DNA of 64,000 bases, taken from Nonomuraea angiospora (lineage in GTDB: Bacteria > Actinomycetota > Actinomycetes > Streptosporangiales > Streptosporangiaceae). The notes below the pieces were generated by a model. The model was not told the origin of the DNA. It did no database searches and was given only the letters and a program-made list of their open reading frames with translations. A program made the translations under genes and the position numbers. The stretch lies in NCBI RefSeq assembly GCF_014873145.1, contig NZ_JADBEK010000001.1, positions 1,364,001 through 1,428,000 of the forward strand, in the 5' to 3' direction. This document shows positions 15,530 through 64,000 of the stretch, piece by piece (position 1 is the first letter of the stretch; each line of letters begins with the position of its first letter).

Positions 15530-16952
15530 GGTATGCCTCCAGCCCGTGCCGACCGCCCTCGCGGCCGTAACCGGACTCCTTGTTGCCGCCGAAGGGGCTG
15601 GCGGGATCGAACACGTTGAAGGTGTTGGACCACACCACACCGGCGCGCAGCCGGCTCGCGGTCCAGAGCATCAGGGAGCCCTTCTCCGTCCACACCCCGG
15701 CGGACAGCCCGTACGGCGTGTTGTTGGCCTTGCTCACGGCCTCCTCCGGGGTGCGGAAGGTGAGAACCGACAGCACGGGGCCGAAGATCTCCTCGCGGGC
15801 GATCCGGTGCGCCTGCGTGACCCCGGTGAACACGGTGGGCGGGAACCAGTATCCGCGTTCCGGCAGCGGGCACGACGGCGACCAGCCCGTGGCGCCCTCC
15901 GACTCGCCGGCGGCGGCGAGTTCGCGGATCCTGGCGAGCTGCGCGGCGGAGTTGACGGCTCCGATGTCGGTGTTCTTGTCCAGCGGGTCGCCGAGGCGCA
16001 GCCGTTCGATGCGGGCCCGCAGCCTGGCCAGCAGCTCGTCCGCGATCGATTCCTGGACCAGCAGCCGCGAGCCCGCGCAGCACACGTGCCCCTGGTTGAA
16101 GAAGATCCCCGTGACGATCCCCTCGACGGCCTGGTCGATCGCCGCGTCGTCGTAGACGATGTTGGCGCCCTTGCCGCCCAGCTCCAGGGTGAGCCGCTTG
16201 CGCGTGCCGGCGACGGCGCGGGCGATCTGCCTGCCCACCTCGGTGGAGCCGGTGAAGGCCACCTTGTCGGCGTCCGGGTGCGCGACCACGGCCTGGCCGG
16301 TGGCGCCGGCTCCGGTCACGATGTTCACCACGCCCGGCGGCAGCCCCGCCTCCTGGCAGATCTCGGCGAAGGCCAGGGCGGTCAGCGGGGTGGTCTCGGC
16401 GGGCTTGAGCACGACCGTGTTCCCGGTGGCCAGCGCGGGCGCGACCTTCCACGCGAGCATCAGCAGGGGGAAGTTCCACGGGATGACCTGCGCGGCCACG
16501 CCCAGCGGCCTGGCGCTGCCGTGCCCGGCGTGCGCCAGCTTGTCGGCCCAGCCGGCGTAGTAGAAGAAGTGGGCCGCGACCAGCGGCAGGTCGACGTCCC
16601 TGGTCTCCTTGATCGGTTTGCCGTTGTCGAGTGACTCGAGCACGGCGAGCTCGCGGGCGCGTTCCTGGATGATGCGCGCGATTCTGAACAGGTATTTGCC
16701 GCGTTCGGCGCCCGGCAGGGGTGACCACACCCGCTCGAAGGCCCGCCGCGCGGCGGCGAAGGCGCGCGCCACGTCGGCGTCGCCGGCGGCGGCGACCTCG
16801 GCCAGCGGCTCCTCGTCCGCCGGGTTGACCGTGACGATGCGCTCGTCGCTCTCGGCCTCGACGAACTCGCCGTCGATGAACAGGTCGTACGACGGCCGGA
16901 TGGACACGAGGGATCGTGCCTCCGGCGCGGGCGCGTACTCGAAGATCTCCAC
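15522..16952 (-). CDS. NAD(P)-dependent aldehyde dehydrogenase
   Basis: 476 residues, full ALDH length. The oxyanion/cofactor block IPWNFPLLM, the general base in LELGGKGAN and the catalytic Cys in NQGHVCCAGSR are present, as is EEIFGPVLS near the end. The start is GTG at 16952 with GGGAGAGG just upstream. It follows deoC by 8 bases, so its natural substrate could be the acetaldehyde released by DeoC, oxidised to acetate. This is inference from context. Confidence 0.9.
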   Translation of the reverse strand: MEIFEYAPAPEARSLVSIRPSYDLFIDGEFVEAESDERIVTVNPADEEPLAEVAAAGDADVARAFAAARRAFERVWSPLPGAERGKYLFRIARIIQERARELAVLESLDNGKPIKETRDVDLPLVAAHFFYYAGWADKLAHAGHGSARPLGVAAQVIPWNFPLLMLAWKVAPALATGNTVVLKPAETTPLTALAFAEICQEAGLPPGVVNIVTGAGATGQAVVAHPDADKVAFTGSTEVGRQIARAVAGTRKRLTLELGGKGANIVYDDAAIDQAVEGIVTGIFFNQGHVCCAGSRLLVQESIADELLARLRARIERLRLGDPLDKNTDIGAVNSAAQLARIRELAAAGESEGATGWSPSCPLPERGYWFPPTVFTGVTQAHRIAREEIFGPVLSVLTFRTPEEAVSKANNTPYGLSAGVWTEKGSLMLWTASRLRAGVVWSNTFNVFDPASPFGGNKESGYGREGGRHGLEAYLG

Positions 16953-54668: not shown

Positions 54669-57527
54669 ATGCCCGCCGACGACGATGGCCCCTTCCCCGA
54701 CTTCCGGATCCTGGGCCCGCTGGAGATCAGCCTGTCCCGCCGGGAGGTCCAGCTTCCCGGCCAGCACGTCCGCTGGCTCCTGGCCGTGCTGCTGTTGTCA
54801 CGGGGGGAGCCGGTCGCCGAAGGCCAGCTCCTGAGCCACGTCTGGGGCACCTCCGAGGCCAGCCTGCGGGCTCTGCGCACCAGCGTGTCGCGGCTGCGAT
54901 CGTGGTTGCGCGACCACACGGGGATGACCGAGGCGGTCAAGTACACCAGGTCCGGCGGCTACGTCCTCGACCTGGACGCGCGGCATGTGGACGCGGCCCG
55001 CTTCCTCGGCCGCTACCGCGCCGCCGCTCGCGAGCCGGACCCCGCGCTCGGGCTCGACCTGCTGTTGCGGGCGCTCGCGCAGTGGCGCGGGACCGTGCTG
55101 GAAGGAGCCCCCGAGGAGGTCCGCGCGCACGCGGGCATCCGCCGGCTGCAGAGCGCCCGGGCCGGCTGCGCGGCCAGGGCCGCCGACCTGGCGCTGCACA
55201 CCAGCCGCCCGGAGGCGGCCCTGCCGCACGTGCGGGAGGTCGCCGCGGACATGCCGTACGAGGAGCCGCTCCAGACCCGGCTGATCAGGCTGCTCGGCGC
55301 CACCGGCCGCAGAGCCGAGGCGTTGCGCTGCTTCGAGGAGATCCGGCGCAGGCTGGCCGACGAACTCGGCGTCGACCCCTCCGACGAGCTCCGCGCCACG
55401 CACGCGGAGCTGCTGCGCGAGCACCGGCCCGCCCCCGGGCCCGCGGCGCCGCGCCCACCCGAGCAGGCCCCACCCGAGCAGGCCCGGCCGGTGGCCGCCG
55501 AACTGCCGATGGACGTGGCGACGTTCACGGGGCGCAGGCGAGAGGTCGAGCATCTGTGCGGCTTGCTGGGAGCGGCACGCCAGGAGGGCCCGGTCGTCGT
55601 GTCGATCTCGGGCGGCGGCGGGGTCGGGAAGTCGGCGCTGGCGATCCACGTCGCCCACCGTCTGGCCGCCCGCTACCCCGACGGCCAGCTGTACCTCAAC
55701 CTGCACGGATCCACCCCCAACACCAGGCCCGTCGAGACGTCCGCGGCGCTGGCCCGGCTCCTGCGCTCCCTGGGGACGGACGACGAGGCGGTGCCGGCCG
55801 AGGTCGAGGAGGCCGCGGGCCAGCTACGGTCGCTGACCGCGGGCAAACGCCTGCTGATCGTCCTGGACAACGCGCTGGACGCCGCCCAGATCCGTCACCT
55901 GCTGCCCGGCCACGGCGCCGGCGCGGTACTGCTCACAAGCCGCAAGGTGCTCACCGAACTGGACGGCGCCACGCACCTACGCCTAGAGCTCCTGCCCGAA
56001 GAGGACTCCCTGGCGCTCTTCGCCCGCCTCGTCGGCCGTGACCGCGTCCGGGCCGAGACCGCGGCCGCCGAGGCGGTCGTCCGCCAGTGTGATCACCTAC
56101 CCCTGGCGGTCTGCATCGCCGCCGCCCGGCTCAACGCCCGTGCCACCTGGAGCGTTCGCGCCCTGGCCGACCGCCTGGCGACGGACCGGCACCGGCTGGC
56201 CGAACTCCACGTCGGCGACCGGGCGCTGCGCGCCAGCTTCGCCGTCGGCTACGACGAGCTCGACGCCGGTCACGCCCGCCTCTTCCGCCTGCTGGGCCTG
56301 CTCGCCAACGCCGACGTCGGCGTGGGGGTCGCCGCCGCCCTGGCCGGCATCCCCGAACGGCAGGCGGAGGACGTCCTGGACTATCTCGTCGACCTCCACA
56401 TGGTGGAGAACCACGCCCCCCGCCGCTACCGCATGCACGACCTGCTCCGCCAGTTCGCCTACGAGCGCGCGCACGAGGAGGACGACGCCGACCGGCGCGC
56501 CGCGGCCCTGCGGAACGTGCTGCACTGGTACCTCGCGACAGCCCGGGCCGTGTGCGTCCGGGTCAATCCGGACGCCGCATGGCGGACCGGCATCGGGCCG
56601 CAGGACCTGGCCGTGCCGGGGGCCCGCCTGGACAGCCACCAGCAGATCCAGGCCTGGATCAAGGCGGAGACCGCGAACTTCCCCGTGGTCCTGCGCCAGG
56701 CGATCGGCGAGCTCGACGACGGCCCGTCGCTGGCGGTCGGCCTGGCGGCGGCGCTCTACCTCCCCCTGGGATACGAACGGTTGTGGAAGGACCAGTACAC
56801 GCTGCAGGAGCTGGCGGCCGACGCCGCCGGGCGCGCCGGCGACCCGCTGCAGTTCGCGGTCGTCCAGGGAGACCTGGGCGACGTGCAGTCCCAGCTGGGC
56901 CAGTTGAGCGACGCCATCGCGAGGCTGCGGGACTCCCTGGACGCCTACCGCCGCCTTCGGCATCCGCGCGGGGAGTCCTCACAGCTGGACCGGCTCGCCG
57001 GCGCCTACGGCCTGCTCGGCCGCTATGACGAGTCCATCGACTGCTACCGGCAGGCGCTGGCGCTCGACCGCAAGCAGGGCGACCGGTTCAACGAGGGCAT
57101 CACGCTCAGCAACCTGGGCCTGACCTACCAGAAGGCCGGCCGCTTCGCCGAGGCCGTCCATGCCCACACCGAGTCCATCGCCATCCACCGCGAGACCGAC
57201 AGCCCCTTCGGCCTCGGCTGCCTGCTGGGCAACCTGGCCGAGGCCCGGCGGCTCGCCGGCCGGCCCGACCTGGCGGTCCCCCTGTTCCGGGAGGCGCTGC
57301 GGGCCGACGACGACGCCGGCCGGTCCGGCACGTACGACGAGGCCGAGCACTGGTGGGGGCTGGGCCGCTGCCACGACGACCTGGGCGAGTCGGGGCCCGC
57401 GCAGGAGTGCAGGCGCGCGGCGGGCGCCCTGCTCCACCGTCTGGGCCTGATCGGGGCGCAGGAGAGGCAGCTGATCGAGGCCGAGGCGCACCCGCCGACA
57501 CCGGAGATCATCCGCAGGAACACCTGA
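54669..57527 (+). CDS. AfsR/SARP-type regulator with NB-ARC ATPase and TPR repeats
   Basis: 952 residues from ATG 54669 with GGAGG 4 bases upstream. A winged-helix DNA-binding domain (10-100), a bacterial transcriptional activator domain (about 105-250), an NB-ARC/STAND ATPase with P-loop SGGGGVGKSAL near 314 and LLIVLDNALD, and TPR repeats from about 720. This is the AfsR architecture. Such proteins switch on secondary metabolism. It converges on the MNIO gene with 15 bases between, so it probably controls the RiPP-type cluster to its right, though this is inferred. Confidence 0.92.
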   Translation: MPADDDGPFPDFRILGPLEISLSRREVQLPGQHVRWLLAVLLLSRGEPVAEGQLLSHVWGTSEASLRALRTSVSRLRSWLRDHTGMTEAVKYTRSGGYVLDLDARHVDAARFLGRYRAAAREPDPALGLDLLLRALAQWRGTVLEGAPEEVRAHAGIRRLQSARAGCAARAADLALHTSRPEAALPHVREVAADMPYEEPLQTRLIRLLGATGRRAEALRCFEEIRRRLADELGVDPSDELRATHAELLREHRPAPGPAAPRPPEQAPPEQARPVAAELPMDVATFTGRRREVEHLCGLLGAARQEGPVVVSISGGGGVGKSALAIHVAHRLAARYPDGQLYLNLHGSTPNTRPVETSAALARLLRSLGTDDEAVPAEVEEAAGQLRSLTAGKRLLIVLDNALDAAQIRHLLPGHGAGAVLLTSRKVLTELDGATHLRLELLPEEDSLALFARLVGRDRVRAETAAAEAVVRQCDHLPLAVCIAAARLNARATWSVRALADRLATDRHRLAELHVGDRALRASFAVGYDELDAGHARLFRLLGLLANADVGVGVAAALAGIPERQAEDVLDYLVDLHMVENHAPRRYRMHDLLRQFAYERAHEEDDADRRAAALRNVLHWYLATARAVCVRVNPDAAWRTGIGPQDLAVPGARLDSHQQIQAWIKAETANFPVVLRQAIGELDDGPSLAVGLAAALYLPLGYERLWKDQYTLQELAADAAGRAGDPLQFAVVQGDLGDVQSQLGQLSDAIARLRDSLDAYRRLRHPRGESSQLDRLAGAYGLLGRYDESIDCYRQALALDRKQGDRFNEGITLSNLGLTYQKAGRFAEAVHAHTESIAIHRETDSPFGLGCLLGNLAEARRLAGRPDLAVPLFREALRADDDAGRSGTYDEAEHWWGLGRCHDDLGESGPAQECRRAAGALLHRLGLIGAQERQLIEAEAHPPTPEIIRRNT

Positions 57528-57542: not shown

Positions 57543-59240
57543 TCACTGGCCCGTGCAGCAGGCCGCCGTCCCCGGCTCCACGAGGGTGTGGTAGTTGAGA
57601 TCGGCCAGATCGGCCTCCGCCCCACCGGCCGCCCCACCGGCCGCCCCACCGGCCGCCCCACCGGCCGCCCCACCGGCCGCCCCACCGGCCGCCCCGCCAG
57701 CGACCCCGCCGGCCGCGCACGCGGGCCCGGCGACGAAGGCGAACCGGCACTCGCCCAGGTGCCGCACCGTCACCGGGGCCGGCAGCAGCGCCCGCCGCGG
57801 GTCGAGGGATCCGCCGCGGAAGGCGTCGCTGAGATAGGTCAGGTCGACCCCGACGTCGAACGTGTCCGAGGCGGCCGTCCCGGCCGCGCACAGGTTCATC
57901 CAGCTCTCGACGCGGACGAGTTCGGGCCCGACGGCGTCGCCGGGGTCCTGCGCGACGAGGTCCTCGTAGGCCTCCCTGGCCTTCTCCCACAGCTCCCGCG
58001 ACCTGTCCTGGAGCAGCGGCGGGACCAGCAGGTCGTAGAACGCGCCCCGCTCCAGGCCCGTCCGGCGCATGAGCCAGCGGGTCGCGAGGGGGTAATAGCT
58101 GGTGGCGAAGCGGCCGTGCAGCTGGATCCGGGACAGGCGTTCGTACTCCCACCTGCGCTGCTCGGCGACCGCGAACACCTCCAGCACCTCCTCGCCGGCG
58201 GCCGGGAGCCGGACGGGGGAGCCGCCGTGCAGCAGGTCGTACATCCCCACGGTCGCCTTCTTGGTCCTCAGACGTGCCTGCTCGCGCGAGGGGCGCGGCG
58301 CCGGCGCCGGCCGCGTCCCGGCGAGCCAGGCGGCGACCGCCGGCCTGGCCCTGATCTCGGCGATCCTGGCCAGGGCGCGGGCCGGGATCTTCGCGCCGAA
58401 CACCTCCAGGGTGATCGCCCGCAGGTTGGGGGCGTTGCGGACGACCTCGTCGAGCATGTCCAGGCAGACCGAGATGATGGGCTGGTCGCCGTGCGTGTCG
58501 TCGTAGTGGTAACCGTCCTCGCGCAGGTCGATGCCGCCGCCCGCGACGTGGATCTCGGTGATGGACGGCCACGGCAGCCGGTGGAAGTCGCTCGTGGGCG
58601 CGGCGCCCCGGGCGATCTGGTAGCTCAGCACGTGCCCCACGTCGAAGCACATGCCGCAACCCGTCTCCCGGGTCAGCTCGGCGAAGAAGTCGAAGGCGTG
58701 CATGTCGCCGGCCACCAGCGTGGTCGGCGGGAACTCCGCGTTGAAGGCGACGCCGAGCCGCTCCTGCACCTCGCGGACGTTGCCGGCCGTGACCACGAGC
58801 GTCGCGTCGGTCAGCGGGAACGGCATGAAGTGCGGGTACACGTGCCGCTCGGACATGAGCCAGACCCCCAGATCCTCGGTGATCCACGGGGTACGGGTCA
58901 CCTCGACCAGCTCGGCAAGCTCGGCGAGGTCCCCGGACGTGGGCGGGTCGGGATAGACGGGATTGATGTTCGTGCTGTGCACCAGCACCCGTTTCTCGCC
59001 GGCCACCTCGGGGATCTTCATGGCGACGAATCCCTTGCTCCTGGCGTTGCGGCGATGCCTGATCTCCGCGTATCCGGTCGGCCCGCCCAGGTGACGGGCC
59101 GACGGGGCGGTGATCTCGAAGTAGTCGATCCGTCCCGGCGAGTCCGCCAGGTAGTCGGCGTGCAGGTCGGACGGGTTGACCCCGACCCCGACGCCGAAGA
59201 TGGGAAGAGCCTGGAAGTATTCGGGTCCGAACGTGGCCAT
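57543..59240 (-). CDS. DUF692/MNIO multinuclear iron enzyme with C-terminal Gly/Ala linker and Cys-Cys tail
   Basis: 565 residues from ATG 59240 (GGAGGG 4 bases upstream). Residues 1-290 match the MNIO barrel of MbnB and TglH, with likely ligands H88, E122, D200/H203 (FDVGH), H231 (EIHVAG), D248/H250 (DTHGD) and E279 (LEVFG). Known MNIO enzymes oxidise Cys (and other) residues in peptide precursors. Residues 330-505 form a second domain I do not recognise, perhaps the substrate-binding partner. Then comes a Gly-Gly-Ala-Ala repeat linker (511-540) and the tail EADLADLNYHTLVEPGTAAC-CTGQ, which looks like a leader/core end. The enzyme may carry its own substrate. The gene follows the ThiF-like gene by 14 bases. 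Confidence 0.85.
   Translation of the reverse strand: MATFGPEYFQALPIFGVGVGVNPSDLHADYLADSPGRIDYFEITAPSARHLGGPTGYAEIRHRRNARSKGFVAMKIPEVAGEKRVLVHSTNINPVYPDPPTSGDLAELAELVEVTRTPWITEDLGVWLMSERHVYPHFMPFPLTDATLVVTAGNVREVQERLGVAFNAEFPPTTLVAGDMHAFDFFAELTRETGCGMCFDVGHVLSYQIARGAAPTSDFHRLPWPSITEIHVAGGGIDLREDGYHYDDTHGDQPIISVCLDMLDEVVRNAPNLRAITLEVFGAKIPARALARIAEIRARPAVAAWLAGTRPAPAPRPSREQARLRTKKATVGMYDLLHGGSPVRLPAAGEEVLEVFAVAEQRRWEYERLSRIQLHGRFATSYYPLATRWLMRRTGLERGAFYDLLVPPLLQDRSRELWEKAREAYEDLVAQDPGDAVGPELVRVESWMNLCAAGTAASDTFDVGVDLTYLSDAFRGGSLDPRRALLPAPVTVRHLGECRFAFVAGPACAAGGVAGGAAGGAAGGAAGGAAGGAAGGAAGGAEADLADLNYHTLVEPGTAACCTGQ
57619..57702. repeat. 12-base tandem repeat inside the MNIO gene
   Basis: Six exact head-to-tail copies of GCCCCACCGGCC (57619-57690) and one degenerate copy. 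On the coding strand they encode the Gly-Gly-Ala-Ala linker. Being a multiple of three, copy-number changes would only alter linker length. Confidence 0.92.
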
Positions 59241-59254
59241 CTGCCCTCCATCGT

Positions 59255-59935
59255 TCACTGTGGGATGCGCCATTCCTCGAGTCGCAGCAGGCGCCGCAGG
59301 TCGCGGACCGGCCGTTGACGGCCGCAGCGGTCACAGCCGTGACAGGCCACCACCCGGTCGCGCGAAACAGACAGGCCGGGAACCGAGAGGGTGATCACCG
59401 CTCCCGCCGCGTCCCGGGCCGCGTCCCGGGCCGCCCTTCCCGGGCCGTCCCCGGCCGGGCGCAGCAGCAGGCGGGCCGCCGTCGCCGCCACATCCGCATG
59501 CCGCGGCCGGAACCCGGCCGGGCCGAGGGCCGGGTCGCTGTCATAGGCCGCGTACCTGGCCCGCGTCCGGTGCCAGCGCGGGTCGTGCTGGACGCGCCGG
59601 TCGGCGAAGCAGCGAAAGCACGGACCGCTGCCCGGCCGCACCAGTGGCCCGACGACGATCGAGGCGTCCTCCATGACGACCGGCAGCCAGGCCGTGCCGG
59701 TGGCGTGCGCCAGCTCATCGGCACGCTCGCACAGGCCCGGCGCGGGCCGCCACAGCGCCACCACGACAACCTGCGCCCCTGCGGCGAACACGGCGTCGAG
59801 ATCGCCGGCGGTGAACCGGGCGTCGAGACCGTCGGCGGTGAACCGGGCGCCGGGCGGCCGGTCCCGGAGACGGTCGGCGACCCGGGCGCCGAACGGCCCC
59901 TGCCCCACGGCGATCACGCGAACGGTTGCGGCCAC
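59255..59935 (-). CDS. ThiF/E1-like TOMM cyclodehydratase partner without RRE domain
   Basis: 226 residues from GTG 59935, overlapping the YcaO end by 22 bases. It starts directly with a Rossmann-like strand (VRVIAVGQGPFGARVADRL) and has GSGPCFRCFADRR and ACHGCDRCG, two CxxC pairs for a structural zinc as in TOMM C proteins. These partners hold the precursor and activate YcaO. The N-terminal peptide-binding RRE is missing here; one is present in the gene at 63639. Confidence 0.75.
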   Translation of the reverse strand: MAATVRVIAVGQGPFGARVADRLRDRPPGARFTADGLDARFTAGDLDAVFAAGAQVVVVALWRPAPGLCERADELAHATGTAWLPVVMEDASIVVGPLVRPGSGPCFRCFADRRVQHDPRWHRTRARYAAYDSDPALGPAGFRPRHADVAATAARLLLRPAGDGPGRAARDAARDAAGAVITLSVPGLSVSRDRVVACHGCDRCGRQRPVRDLRRLLRLEEWRIPQ

Positions 59936-62281: not shown

Positions 62282-63646
62282 ATGGATCGGATGCCGCCGA
62301 TGTCACCTCTGGTACGCAGCAGATACCTCCTCCTGTCGCCCCACGAATACCGGACCCAGGCCGGCGAACGGGTGTGCCTGGGCTACTCGACCATCACCGC
62401 CCGCGTCTTCTCCGTGTCGCCGCGGACCGCGCGCCTGCTGGAAACGGGGGACCTGGCCGAGCTGAGCCAGGACGTCCGCGACGACCTGGCCCGCCGCGAG
62501 ATCCTGGTGCCCCCTCAGGACGAGCTCGGCCCGGTGCTGGAGGGCATCAGGGACACCTCGGCCCGTCCCGGGCTGCGCGGATTCACCATCATGCCGACCG
62601 CGTACTGCAACATGGCGTGCAGCTACTGCGGCCAGGAGCATCGCAAGGGCTCGCTGCGGCAAGAGCGGATGGAACGGATGATCGCCCGCGTCCTGGCGGC
62701 CATCTCGGACCCCGGCACCGGCCACGTCGAGGTCACCTGGTTCGGCGGCGAACCGCTGCTGGGCTTTCGCACCATCGTCGAGATGAGCGGGCGGTTCCTG
62801 CCCGCCGCCGCCCGGCACGACACCCGCTACTCCGCGGCGATCATCACCAACGGCAGCCTCCTCGACGAGCGCCGGGTGGACGTCCTGTACGGGGAGTGCG
62901 GGGTGCGCGCCATCCAGGTGACGCTGGACGGCGCCGCCGACACCCATGACCGCAGAAGGAAGATGAAGAACGGCCGCCGGACCTTCGGCAAGATCGTCGC
63001 TCTGCTGTCATCGGTGCTGGCCGCCGGCAACCATCCGCAGCTGCGTTTCGACATCCGCGTGAACGTCGACGCCGAGAACCAGGACGACATCCCCGGCCTG
63101 CTGCAGACCCTGGCGGCGCACGGGCTCGGGCACCCGTCGGTCGACCTCGACCTCATGCCGGTGCATTCCTGGGGCAACGACGTCTCCGACGTGGAACTCA
63201 CCCCGGCGGGCTACGCCGAGCGGGAGGCCGAGTGGCTGGCGCTGGCCCGCTCGCTGGGGCTGCGCTTCCGGCTGCTGCCCACCCGGCGCCGGAGCACGAC
63301 GTGCCTGGCCACGACCAGGAACGGCGAGCTCCTCGACCCGTCCGGCGCCGTCTACTCCTGCTCGGAGCACCCCCTGGTGCCCCGCGACCGGGACAGCGGC
63401 GTGCTCGCCACGCTCGACGACCTCGCCACCACCGCCCTGCGGCCCGCCGGCATGTTCGACACCTGGTACGACGAGATCGAGCAGGACCGGTGGCCCTGTG
63501 CCCGCTGCCCGTTCCTGCCCGTGTGCGGCGGCAGCTGCCCGAAGCTGTGGCACGACGGCGCCCCGCCCTGCCCCAGCTACAAGTTCAACTGGCGGCAGCG
63601 GCTGGACCTGGCCGCGCAGTCGAAGGGGCTGGTCCGCTGTGACTGA
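62282..63646 (+). CDS. Radical SAM/SPASM peptide maturase
   Basis: About 454 residues from ATG 62282; ATG 62300 is possible. The radical SAM cluster site is C-x3-C-x2-C (C109, C113, C116 in AYCNMACSYC). The C-terminal SPASM region has many Cys (TTCLATT, YSCSEHP, CARCPFLPVCGGSCP) for two auxiliary clusters. The N-terminal ~80 residues are separate from the barrel and may recognise peptide. Such enzymes make thioether, C-C or other cross-links in RiPP precursors. It is divergent from the LLM-YcaO operon with a 128-base gap and overlaps the next gene by 8 bases. Confidence 0.9.
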   Translation: MDRMPPMSPLVRSRYLLLSPHEYRTQAGERVCLGYSTITARVFSVSPRTARLLETGDLAELSQDVRDDLARREILVPPQDELGPVLEGIRDTSARPGLRGFTIMPTAYCNMACSYCGQEHRKGSLRQERMERMIARVLAAISDPGTGHVEVTWFGGEPLLGFRTIVEMSGRFLPAAARHDTRYSAAIITNGSLLDERRVDVLYGECGVRAIQVTLDGAADTHDRRRKMKNGRRTFGKIVALLSSVLAAGNHPQLRFDIRVNVDAENQDDIPGLLQTLAAHGLGHPSVDLDLMPVHSWGNDVSDVELTPAGYAEREAEWLALARSLGLRFRLLPTRRRSTTCLATTRNGELLDPSGAVYSCSEHPLVPRDRDSGVLATLDDLATTALRPAGMFDTWYDEIEQDRWPCARCPFLPVCGGSCPKLWHDGAPPCPSYKFNWRQRLDLAAQSKGLVRCD

Positions 63647-64000
63647 ACCGCCGCCGATCGAGTACGAGCCGACGCCGCACGCGAGCTGGGCCGACCTCCA
63701 CGACCTGCCCGGCGGCGTCATCGTCTCGGCACACGGCTGGTACGCCATCCTGCGGGGGCGGACCGGCCGGCAGGTGCGCGAACTGCTGGCCGGCCGCCGG
63801 CGGGTCATCCGTTCCGGCCCGGACAGCGCCGCCCGGCTGAGCCGGCTCGCCGAGCGGGGTGTCCTGCGCGAGCGCGACCCCGGGGCCGGCGCGCCCGCCG
63901 GCCGGTCGATCACCGTGCAGGGCAGTGGGCAGAGCGCCGCCCTCATCGAGGACCTGCTGCGCGCCGAGCTGCGCGGGCAACCCCACGAGGTGTACGGCAA
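63639..64000 (+). CDS. RRE-ThiF-like RiPP protein, N-terminal part (cut by window end)
   Basis: GTG 63639 overlaps the radical SAM stop. The frame is open to the window end (120 codons). Residues about 20-85 have the winged-helix pattern of PqqD-like RiPP recognition elements (VIVSAHGWYAILRGRTGRQV, then RLSRLAERGVL). SITVQGSGQSAALIEDLLRA then begins a Rossmann-like strand as in ocin-ThiF-type proteins. It could supply the RRE missing from the 59255-59935 protein. The rest lies outside. Confidence 0.65.
   Translation, partial: MTEPPPIEYEPTPHASWADLHDLPGGVIVSAHGWYAILRGRTGRQVRELLAGRRRVIRSGPDSAARLSRLAERGVLRERDPGAGAPAGRSITVQGSGQSAALIEDLLRAELRGQPHEVYG

Follow-up and report, generated by a model that had tools for sequence, protein, structure and literature searches.

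An MNIO enzyme of Nonomuraea angiospora with a partner-like C-terminal domain and a conserved Cys-Cys tail

A gene on the minus strand of Nonomuraea angiospora (57543..59240) encodes a 565-aa protein in which an MNIO (DUF692) barrel is followed by a predicted partner-like domain, a variable linker and a conserved tail with two adjacent Cys residues. Positions are those of the window, which is the whole 64,000-nt stretch analysed (assembly GCF_014873145.1, NZ_JADBEK010000001.1, positions 1,364,001 to 1,428,000). Since the tail varies no more than the catalytic domain and does not change with the pathway, it is better explained as a functional element of the enzyme than as a peptide product. Our preferred, though tentative, reading is that the tail is a C-terminal dithiol arm which would serve the iron site with electrons or metal, by analogy with ribonucleotide or mercuric reductase.

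Domain organization of the fusion protein

A first-pass annotation of this DNA had described a DUF692/MNIO protein of about twice the usual length. This holds: the MNIO chains among the best PDB matches have 253-296 residues. The match to PF05114 (E-value 3.5e-26) scored 92.5 bits against a curated cutoff of 25, and the same family was matched in 40 of the 41 proteins that we found, query included (E up to 5). The gene was taken to start with the ATG at 59240, and the homologs in the 40-member alignment likewise begin near M-FGPxYF. Fold comparison of the predicted structure found the MNIO TIM barrel, which spans residues 1-308 (58317..59240, minus strand). H88, D123, E169, D200, H203, H231, D248, H250 and E279 are not substituted in any of the 40 rows, with a single gap each at 88 and 123; D123 aligns with the position of a usual MNIO His. 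These conserved His, Asp and Glu positions of the MNIO barrel are candidate iron ligands. The barrel and its candidate ligands look intact. C259 is Cys in all 40 rows and C451 in 38, the exceptions being P0040 and P0023, the latter with the tail present.

Residues 309-505 (57726..58316, minus strand) form a C-terminal domain with a helical part and a short beta part. Because TIM barrels filled the fold lists of the whole-protein model, this domain was modelled separately. The best fold similarity of residues 297-505 in the predicted structure was to TglI, the partner protein of the MNIO TglH, with moderate scores. The doubled length of the protein most likely reflects a partner-protein fold fused in cis. 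We also considered the extra length as a precursor and set this aside, since the closest fold of the extra domain is TglI, so that it is probably not a precursor. The resemblance to MNIO partner proteins (TglI/NGO1945, PME) did not show up with Pfam profiles: DUF2063 was absent among the nine families matched by any of the 41 members (E up to 5, with filters that drop most matches above about 0.1).

TglHI, MbnBC and HvfBC each consist of an MNIO and a separate partner protein, whereas here the barrel and the partner-like domain make up one natural chain. The HvfBC fusion in PMC13419390 is engineered, and the portions of the literature covered describe no CC tail for any of the three systems. 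As far as excerpts of PMC12636315 go, the ChrH/DybH enzymes resemble the present protein in having an extra C-terminal domain in cis and in the importance of a two-Cys/Gly motif at a C-terminus. In those enzymes a helical bundle of ~7.8 kDa makes up the extra domain, whereas the domain described here has ~200 aa, and their motif CPxCGxG is located on a separate substrate, not on the enzyme. The Vibrio MNIO MovX is similar in that a fused extra domain may replace the partner (excerpts of PMC12452194 and PMC13419390), but that domain is described there as an RRE/winged helix and the same excerpts describe no CC tail.

Conservation of the C-terminal tail

Residues 506-556 (57573..57725) form the linker and residues 557-565 (57546..57572, both minus strand) the tail GTAACCTGQ, in which C561 and C562 follow the GGAA linker as the first-pass annotation had pointed out. 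The same annotation had predicted that among homologs the linker would vary while the Cys-containing tail would be conserved, and the alignment bears this out. The protein search gave 46 relatives; the best 39 were aligned with the query (40 rows) and the weaker seven (P0042-P0048) were excluded. In 38 of the 40 rows (query included), the motif G-x3-CC-[TSA]-G stands 1-7 residues before the C-terminus. No other CC dipeptide occurs in these 38 rows, and the remaining two rows contain no CC at all. In one of the two, P0011, the C-terminal part looks as if the same stretch of the gene were read in another frame. The other, P0040, is 39% identical, originates from a 2.7-kb contig and lies on a long, poorly placed branch of the family tree (41 rows). 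A non-exhaustive profile search (E <= 1e-30), in which scoring was limited to the 7,999 candidates with the most shared words, yielded 40 proteins. One of these was new (P0053, a fragment) and has the tail, which is thus present in 39 of 41 proteins.

With P0011 and P0040 dropped (38 rows), the mean information per column was 3.2 bits for the barrel, 2.27 for the C-terminal domain, 1.3 for the linker and 3.23 for the tail, in which G557, C561, C562 and G564 are invariant. No linker column exceeded 2.2 bits in these rows, and no conserved cleavage motif was seen in the linker. The linker is 17-27 aa long in 36 of the 38 rows, 36 aa in P0003 and 56 aa in the query. It is 20 aa shorter in P0003 than in the query, to which P0003 is 92% identical, and the query owes its extra linker length to a 12-bp in-frame tandem repeat coding for GGAA (57617..57716, minus strand; 8.3 copies). 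A tail that is a chance or low-complexity artefact of this repeat was rejected, as relatives without the repeat keep the tail. Minisatellites are also found in other genes of the same cluster: in the N-terminal part of the ThiF-like gene (59781-59849), in the second YcaO gene (15 bp × 5.9) and at the start of the S8 protease gene (12 bp × 7.8), the last two at L005:14384-14472 and 16056-16149.

Further comparisons addressed the tail in other proteins and loci. Among 221 called proteins of the window and 12 loci (without L005), CC occurs within the last 16 residues in 10/10 MNIO proteins vs 2/211 others, one of the two being a 71-aa peptide of the N. angiospora cluster itself. In six frames of 14 stretches, we found neither the motif at the end of any ORF besides the MNIO nor a stand-alone tail-like peptide gene. 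The nine tail codons of the close pair L022 and L023 differ by three synonymous and no non-synonymous changes, which are small numbers. In the predicted structure, residues 507-558 have pLDDT values below 50 and the last five residues ~52. The family thus has a conserved Cys pair (CC in 38/40) on a C-terminal tail that is predicted to be flexible.

The gene cluster in N. angiospora

The MNIO gene shares its strand with genes for a ThiF/E1-like TOMM leader-binding protein (TIGR03882, 59255..59935, E-value 1.3e-13), a YcaO cyclodehydratase (TIGR03604, 59914..61251, 2.1e-82) and an LLM F420-dependent oxidoreductase (TIGR03621, 61251..62162, 4.3e-87; start from the gene caller, possibly up to 62306), all three matches being above cutoff. 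A divergent operon on the plus strand begins with a radical SAM/SPASM RiPP maturase-like gene (62300..63646, start possibly 62264; PF04055, E-value 1.8e-15), for which the nearest NCBIfam model is TIGR04463 (E-value 5.6e-56, below the cutoff of the model). A second ThiF-like gene (63639..64000, plus strand; TIGR03882, E-value 9.9e-14) is cut by the window end and lies whole at L005:12640-13455. The same strand carries a second YcaO gene, MFS-like and S8 protease genes, two radical SAM-like genes, a PqqF-like peptidase gene and SagB. Of the neighbours named in the first-pass annotation, YcaO, LLM and radical SAM are confirmed by Pfam/NCBIfam and the ThiF-like protein by NCBIfam TIGR03882 only. 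Genes were called with a codon-model caller, so that starts are approximate. A gene for a SARP/AfsR-like regulator with NB-ARC and TPR domains (54669-57527) is convergent with the MNIO gene, ends 15 bp from its stop and is a possible cluster regulator.

That no precursor gene is seen, as had been stated initially, is correct inside the window. However, the gene run extends beyond 64000 and includes two small Cys-containing peptide genes at the equivalents of window positions 71342-71527 and 74829-75044. One encodes a 61-aa peptide with the end DVEGHMDGGGFCW, which matches the NCBIfam aroma-sacti cluster domain NF045560 (E-value 8.4e-18); our literature search gave no matching paper for aroma-sacti. 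The other peptide (71 aa, end NSGCFCCA) has no family match, and a 96%-identical 71-aa protein represents three sequences on four contigs.

Comparison of ten MNIO loci

We compared the N. angiospora locus with nine others (L003, L009, L022, L023, L004, L021, L024, L015 and L014), the MNIO proteins of which are 46-58% identical to that of the window. Four of them (L003, L009 and the near-identical L022 and L023) share a SagB-YcaO fusion, an MBL-fold protein, an MFS protein and an ABC-F protein. Beside these genes are peptide genes (L003:7788-7892, L009:9710-9823, L022:12828-12947 and L023:12790-12909) for peptides of 34-39 aa, all four of which share the C-terminal heptapeptide PANSRCQ. These peptides are likely a RiPP family, and the string PANSRCQ was in none of the papers covered by the literature search. 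The neighbouring ABC-F gene hints at a ribosome-targeting product. Of 392 genomes in the genus of G023, a single one had the MBL protein, adjoining an MNIO gene.

The second group (L004, L021 and L024) has peptides with lasso-type leaders. The peptides of L004 and L021 scored 22.6 and 19.3 bits with NF033521 (cutoff 19), and that of L024, taken from the ORF list, shares 60-67% identity with both over a 30-aa stretch. None has a Cys after the leader motif, the only Cys of the L021 peptide being at position 2. Near the MNIO gene of L024 we also observed a 91-aa peptide (L024:7158-7433) with two tandem lasso-type leader motifs and two core-like segments without Cys. L014 encodes a radical SAM protein, methyltransferases and an ATP-grasp protein, and a 52-aa ORF without family match directly after the MNIO gene is a weak peptide candidate. 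L015 has a radical SAM gene (TIGR03975) and no convincing separate peptide. The radical SAM families of L014 and L015 differ from that of N. angiospora.

In total, a separate peptide is recognizable at 8/10 loci (three unrelated types), with a weak candidate at one and none at one. These small peptides are putative RiPP precursors and MNIO substrates. The identical tail motif accompanies the PANSRCQ peptides, the lasso-leader-like peptides and the N. angiospora cluster. A pathway-specific core should vary with the pathway, so a tail that is constant across loci with differing peptides argues against such a core; moreover, at the loci with lasso-leader-like peptides the tail does not echo a Cys core, since these peptides lack Cys after the leader.

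These data bear on the original proposal that the tail represents a core peptide fused to the enzyme, which, as in borosins, would be released as a natural product after its maturation. The predicted pattern of a variable linker and a conserved tail in a core-like C-terminal position is real, subtilisin-like protease and PqqF-like peptidase genes lie in the same gene run, and borosin methyltransferases also have a substrate-like segment at the enzyme C-terminus (PMC7878506, abstract). In the present family, however, this segment is conserved across unrelated clusters in which separate precursor candidates exist, and the motif does not vary, although diversity would be expected of cores. In the examined flanks, YcaO is present at 5/10 loci and was not found at the other five, the linker shows no conserved cleavage site, and the yield would be at most one product per protein. 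The premise of a missing precursor also fails beyond the window. The proposal had named as its refutation a separate Cys-containing precursor gene beside homologs with the tail absent or unconserved; separate precursor-like genes, some Cys-containing, do accompany homologs, yet these homologs have the tail in its conserved form. We regard a fused core as very improbable.

A docking tag, i.e. a recognition handle for another pathway protein without redox chemistry or modification, would agree with a motif that is short, conserved and placed behind a disordered linker. Yet the neighbours differ between clusters, so that a shared dock would need a housekeeping protein, and both Cys residues are conserved, which suggests thiol chemistry or metal binding. 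We consider this function improbable.

Two small observations concern the Streptomyces plasmid locus L009. LuxE-like acyl-protein synthetase and LuxC-like reductase genes (L009:13632-16210) come straight after the MNIO gene, and their products could convert a peptide carboxylate into an aldehyde. Downstream of them, a 53-aa ORF (L009:16291-16452) has four FPFR repeats, each after acidic residues or Asn-Asp, and looks like a multicore precursor.

Possible role of the tail

The domains, the conservation of the tail and the separate peptide genes are established at the sequence level; the partner-like domain comes from a predicted fold. On this basis we propose a self-contained MNIO in which an iron-dependent TIM-barrel oxidase would have its TglI-like partner domain fused in cis, and a flexible arm of 17-27 residues (56 in the query) ends in the vicinal dithiol. 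The arm would most likely swing back to the iron site of the same or a neighbouring chain, where the dithiol may act as a built-in reductant or hand over metal. It would restore the active mixed-valent iron state or give two electrons per turnover, and the oxidized dithiol would be re-reduced by a cellular thiol system. The substrates would be separate RiPP precursors, different ones in different clusters.

The tail is the same in settings with ThiF/YcaO/LLM/radical SAM genes, with SagB-YcaO/MBL/MFS/ABC-F genes (four loci), with lasso-leader-like peptides (three loci) and at L014 and L015, which argues for such an arm. Current work addresses how the active mixed-valent iron of MNIOs is attained and maintained (PMC13419390, in part). 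According to passages of the same paper, HvfBC requires a reductant, DTT being needed for product formation, and its mixed-valent iron signal is produced by DTT or ascorbate. In ribonucleotide reductases, a Cys pair on a flexible C-terminal tail supplies electrons (passages of PMC5704485), and in MerA such a pair delivers metal (passages of PMC4500099). The likeness to these enzymes, in which the pair serves the active site, is one of mechanism and not of membership, as folds and chemistry are unrelated. Several observations speak against the dithiol arm: the low model confidence at the tail, P0040 with its candidate ligands kept and the tail missing, and L015 as the one locus in ten without a convincing separate peptide. 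As to an active-site partner for the tail thiols, C259, which is Cys throughout the alignment, would be a candidate. In addition, the short beta part of the modelled partner-like domain, where leader binding is expected, may leave the leader-binding site incomplete, and this would fit a cis-tethered substrate.

This last point would also favour the strongest rival, a self-modified tail kept on the enzyme, in which the MNIO oxidizes its own C-terminal CC in cis or between subunits. The CC would become a protein-bound group (ligand, cofactor or switch) needed to mature other RiPP precursors. The seemingly intact barrel and candidate ligands are consistent with this, and the MNIO DybH of the ChrH group does accept C-terminal two-Cys motifs as substrates. 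According to excerpts of PMC12636315, DybH requires no more than the seven-residue C-terminal CPACGMG, which it modifies on GFP behind 4- or 10-residue linkers; its relatives modify the motif on a protein of 34 kDa, and one of them also works on an embedded motif. P0013 and P0014 likewise have 6-7 residues past the last Gly of the motif. On the other hand, the tail differs from CPxCGxG, and another recognizable candidate substrate exists at 8/10 loci and a weak one at a ninth. We judge self-modification to be unlikely, though it deserves serious consideration.

Our literature searches (titles, abstract starts and passages) found no MNIO with a C-terminal Cys tail and neither the dithiol-arm nor the self-modification reading. 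If the dithiol arm is real, a natural single-chain MNIO-partner protein that contains its own dithiol would lend itself readily to experiments, two Cys residues being available for mutation; a self-modified tail would represent a protein-derived group of a new kind. Under either reading, the 41 proteins are a compact enzyme family that occurs in several RiPP cluster types.

Distribution of the family

Genomes with a match at E <= 1e-40 were rare: 1/396 in a sample of the phylum (the N. angiospora genome itself), 2/250 in its family and 1/54 in its genus. The corresponding numbers were 2/392 for the genus of G023 (inferred to be Streptomyces) and 5/300 for the family of a Virgisporangium genome. 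A scan of genome contigs gave two loci. Among plasmid records, 89 match P0030, one of them (L009) across at least 80% of P0030. The N. angiospora genome also contains a second, distant MNIO-like stretch (L002, G000:C1:6496381-6497064), which is 29% identical and has one TGA inside the match.
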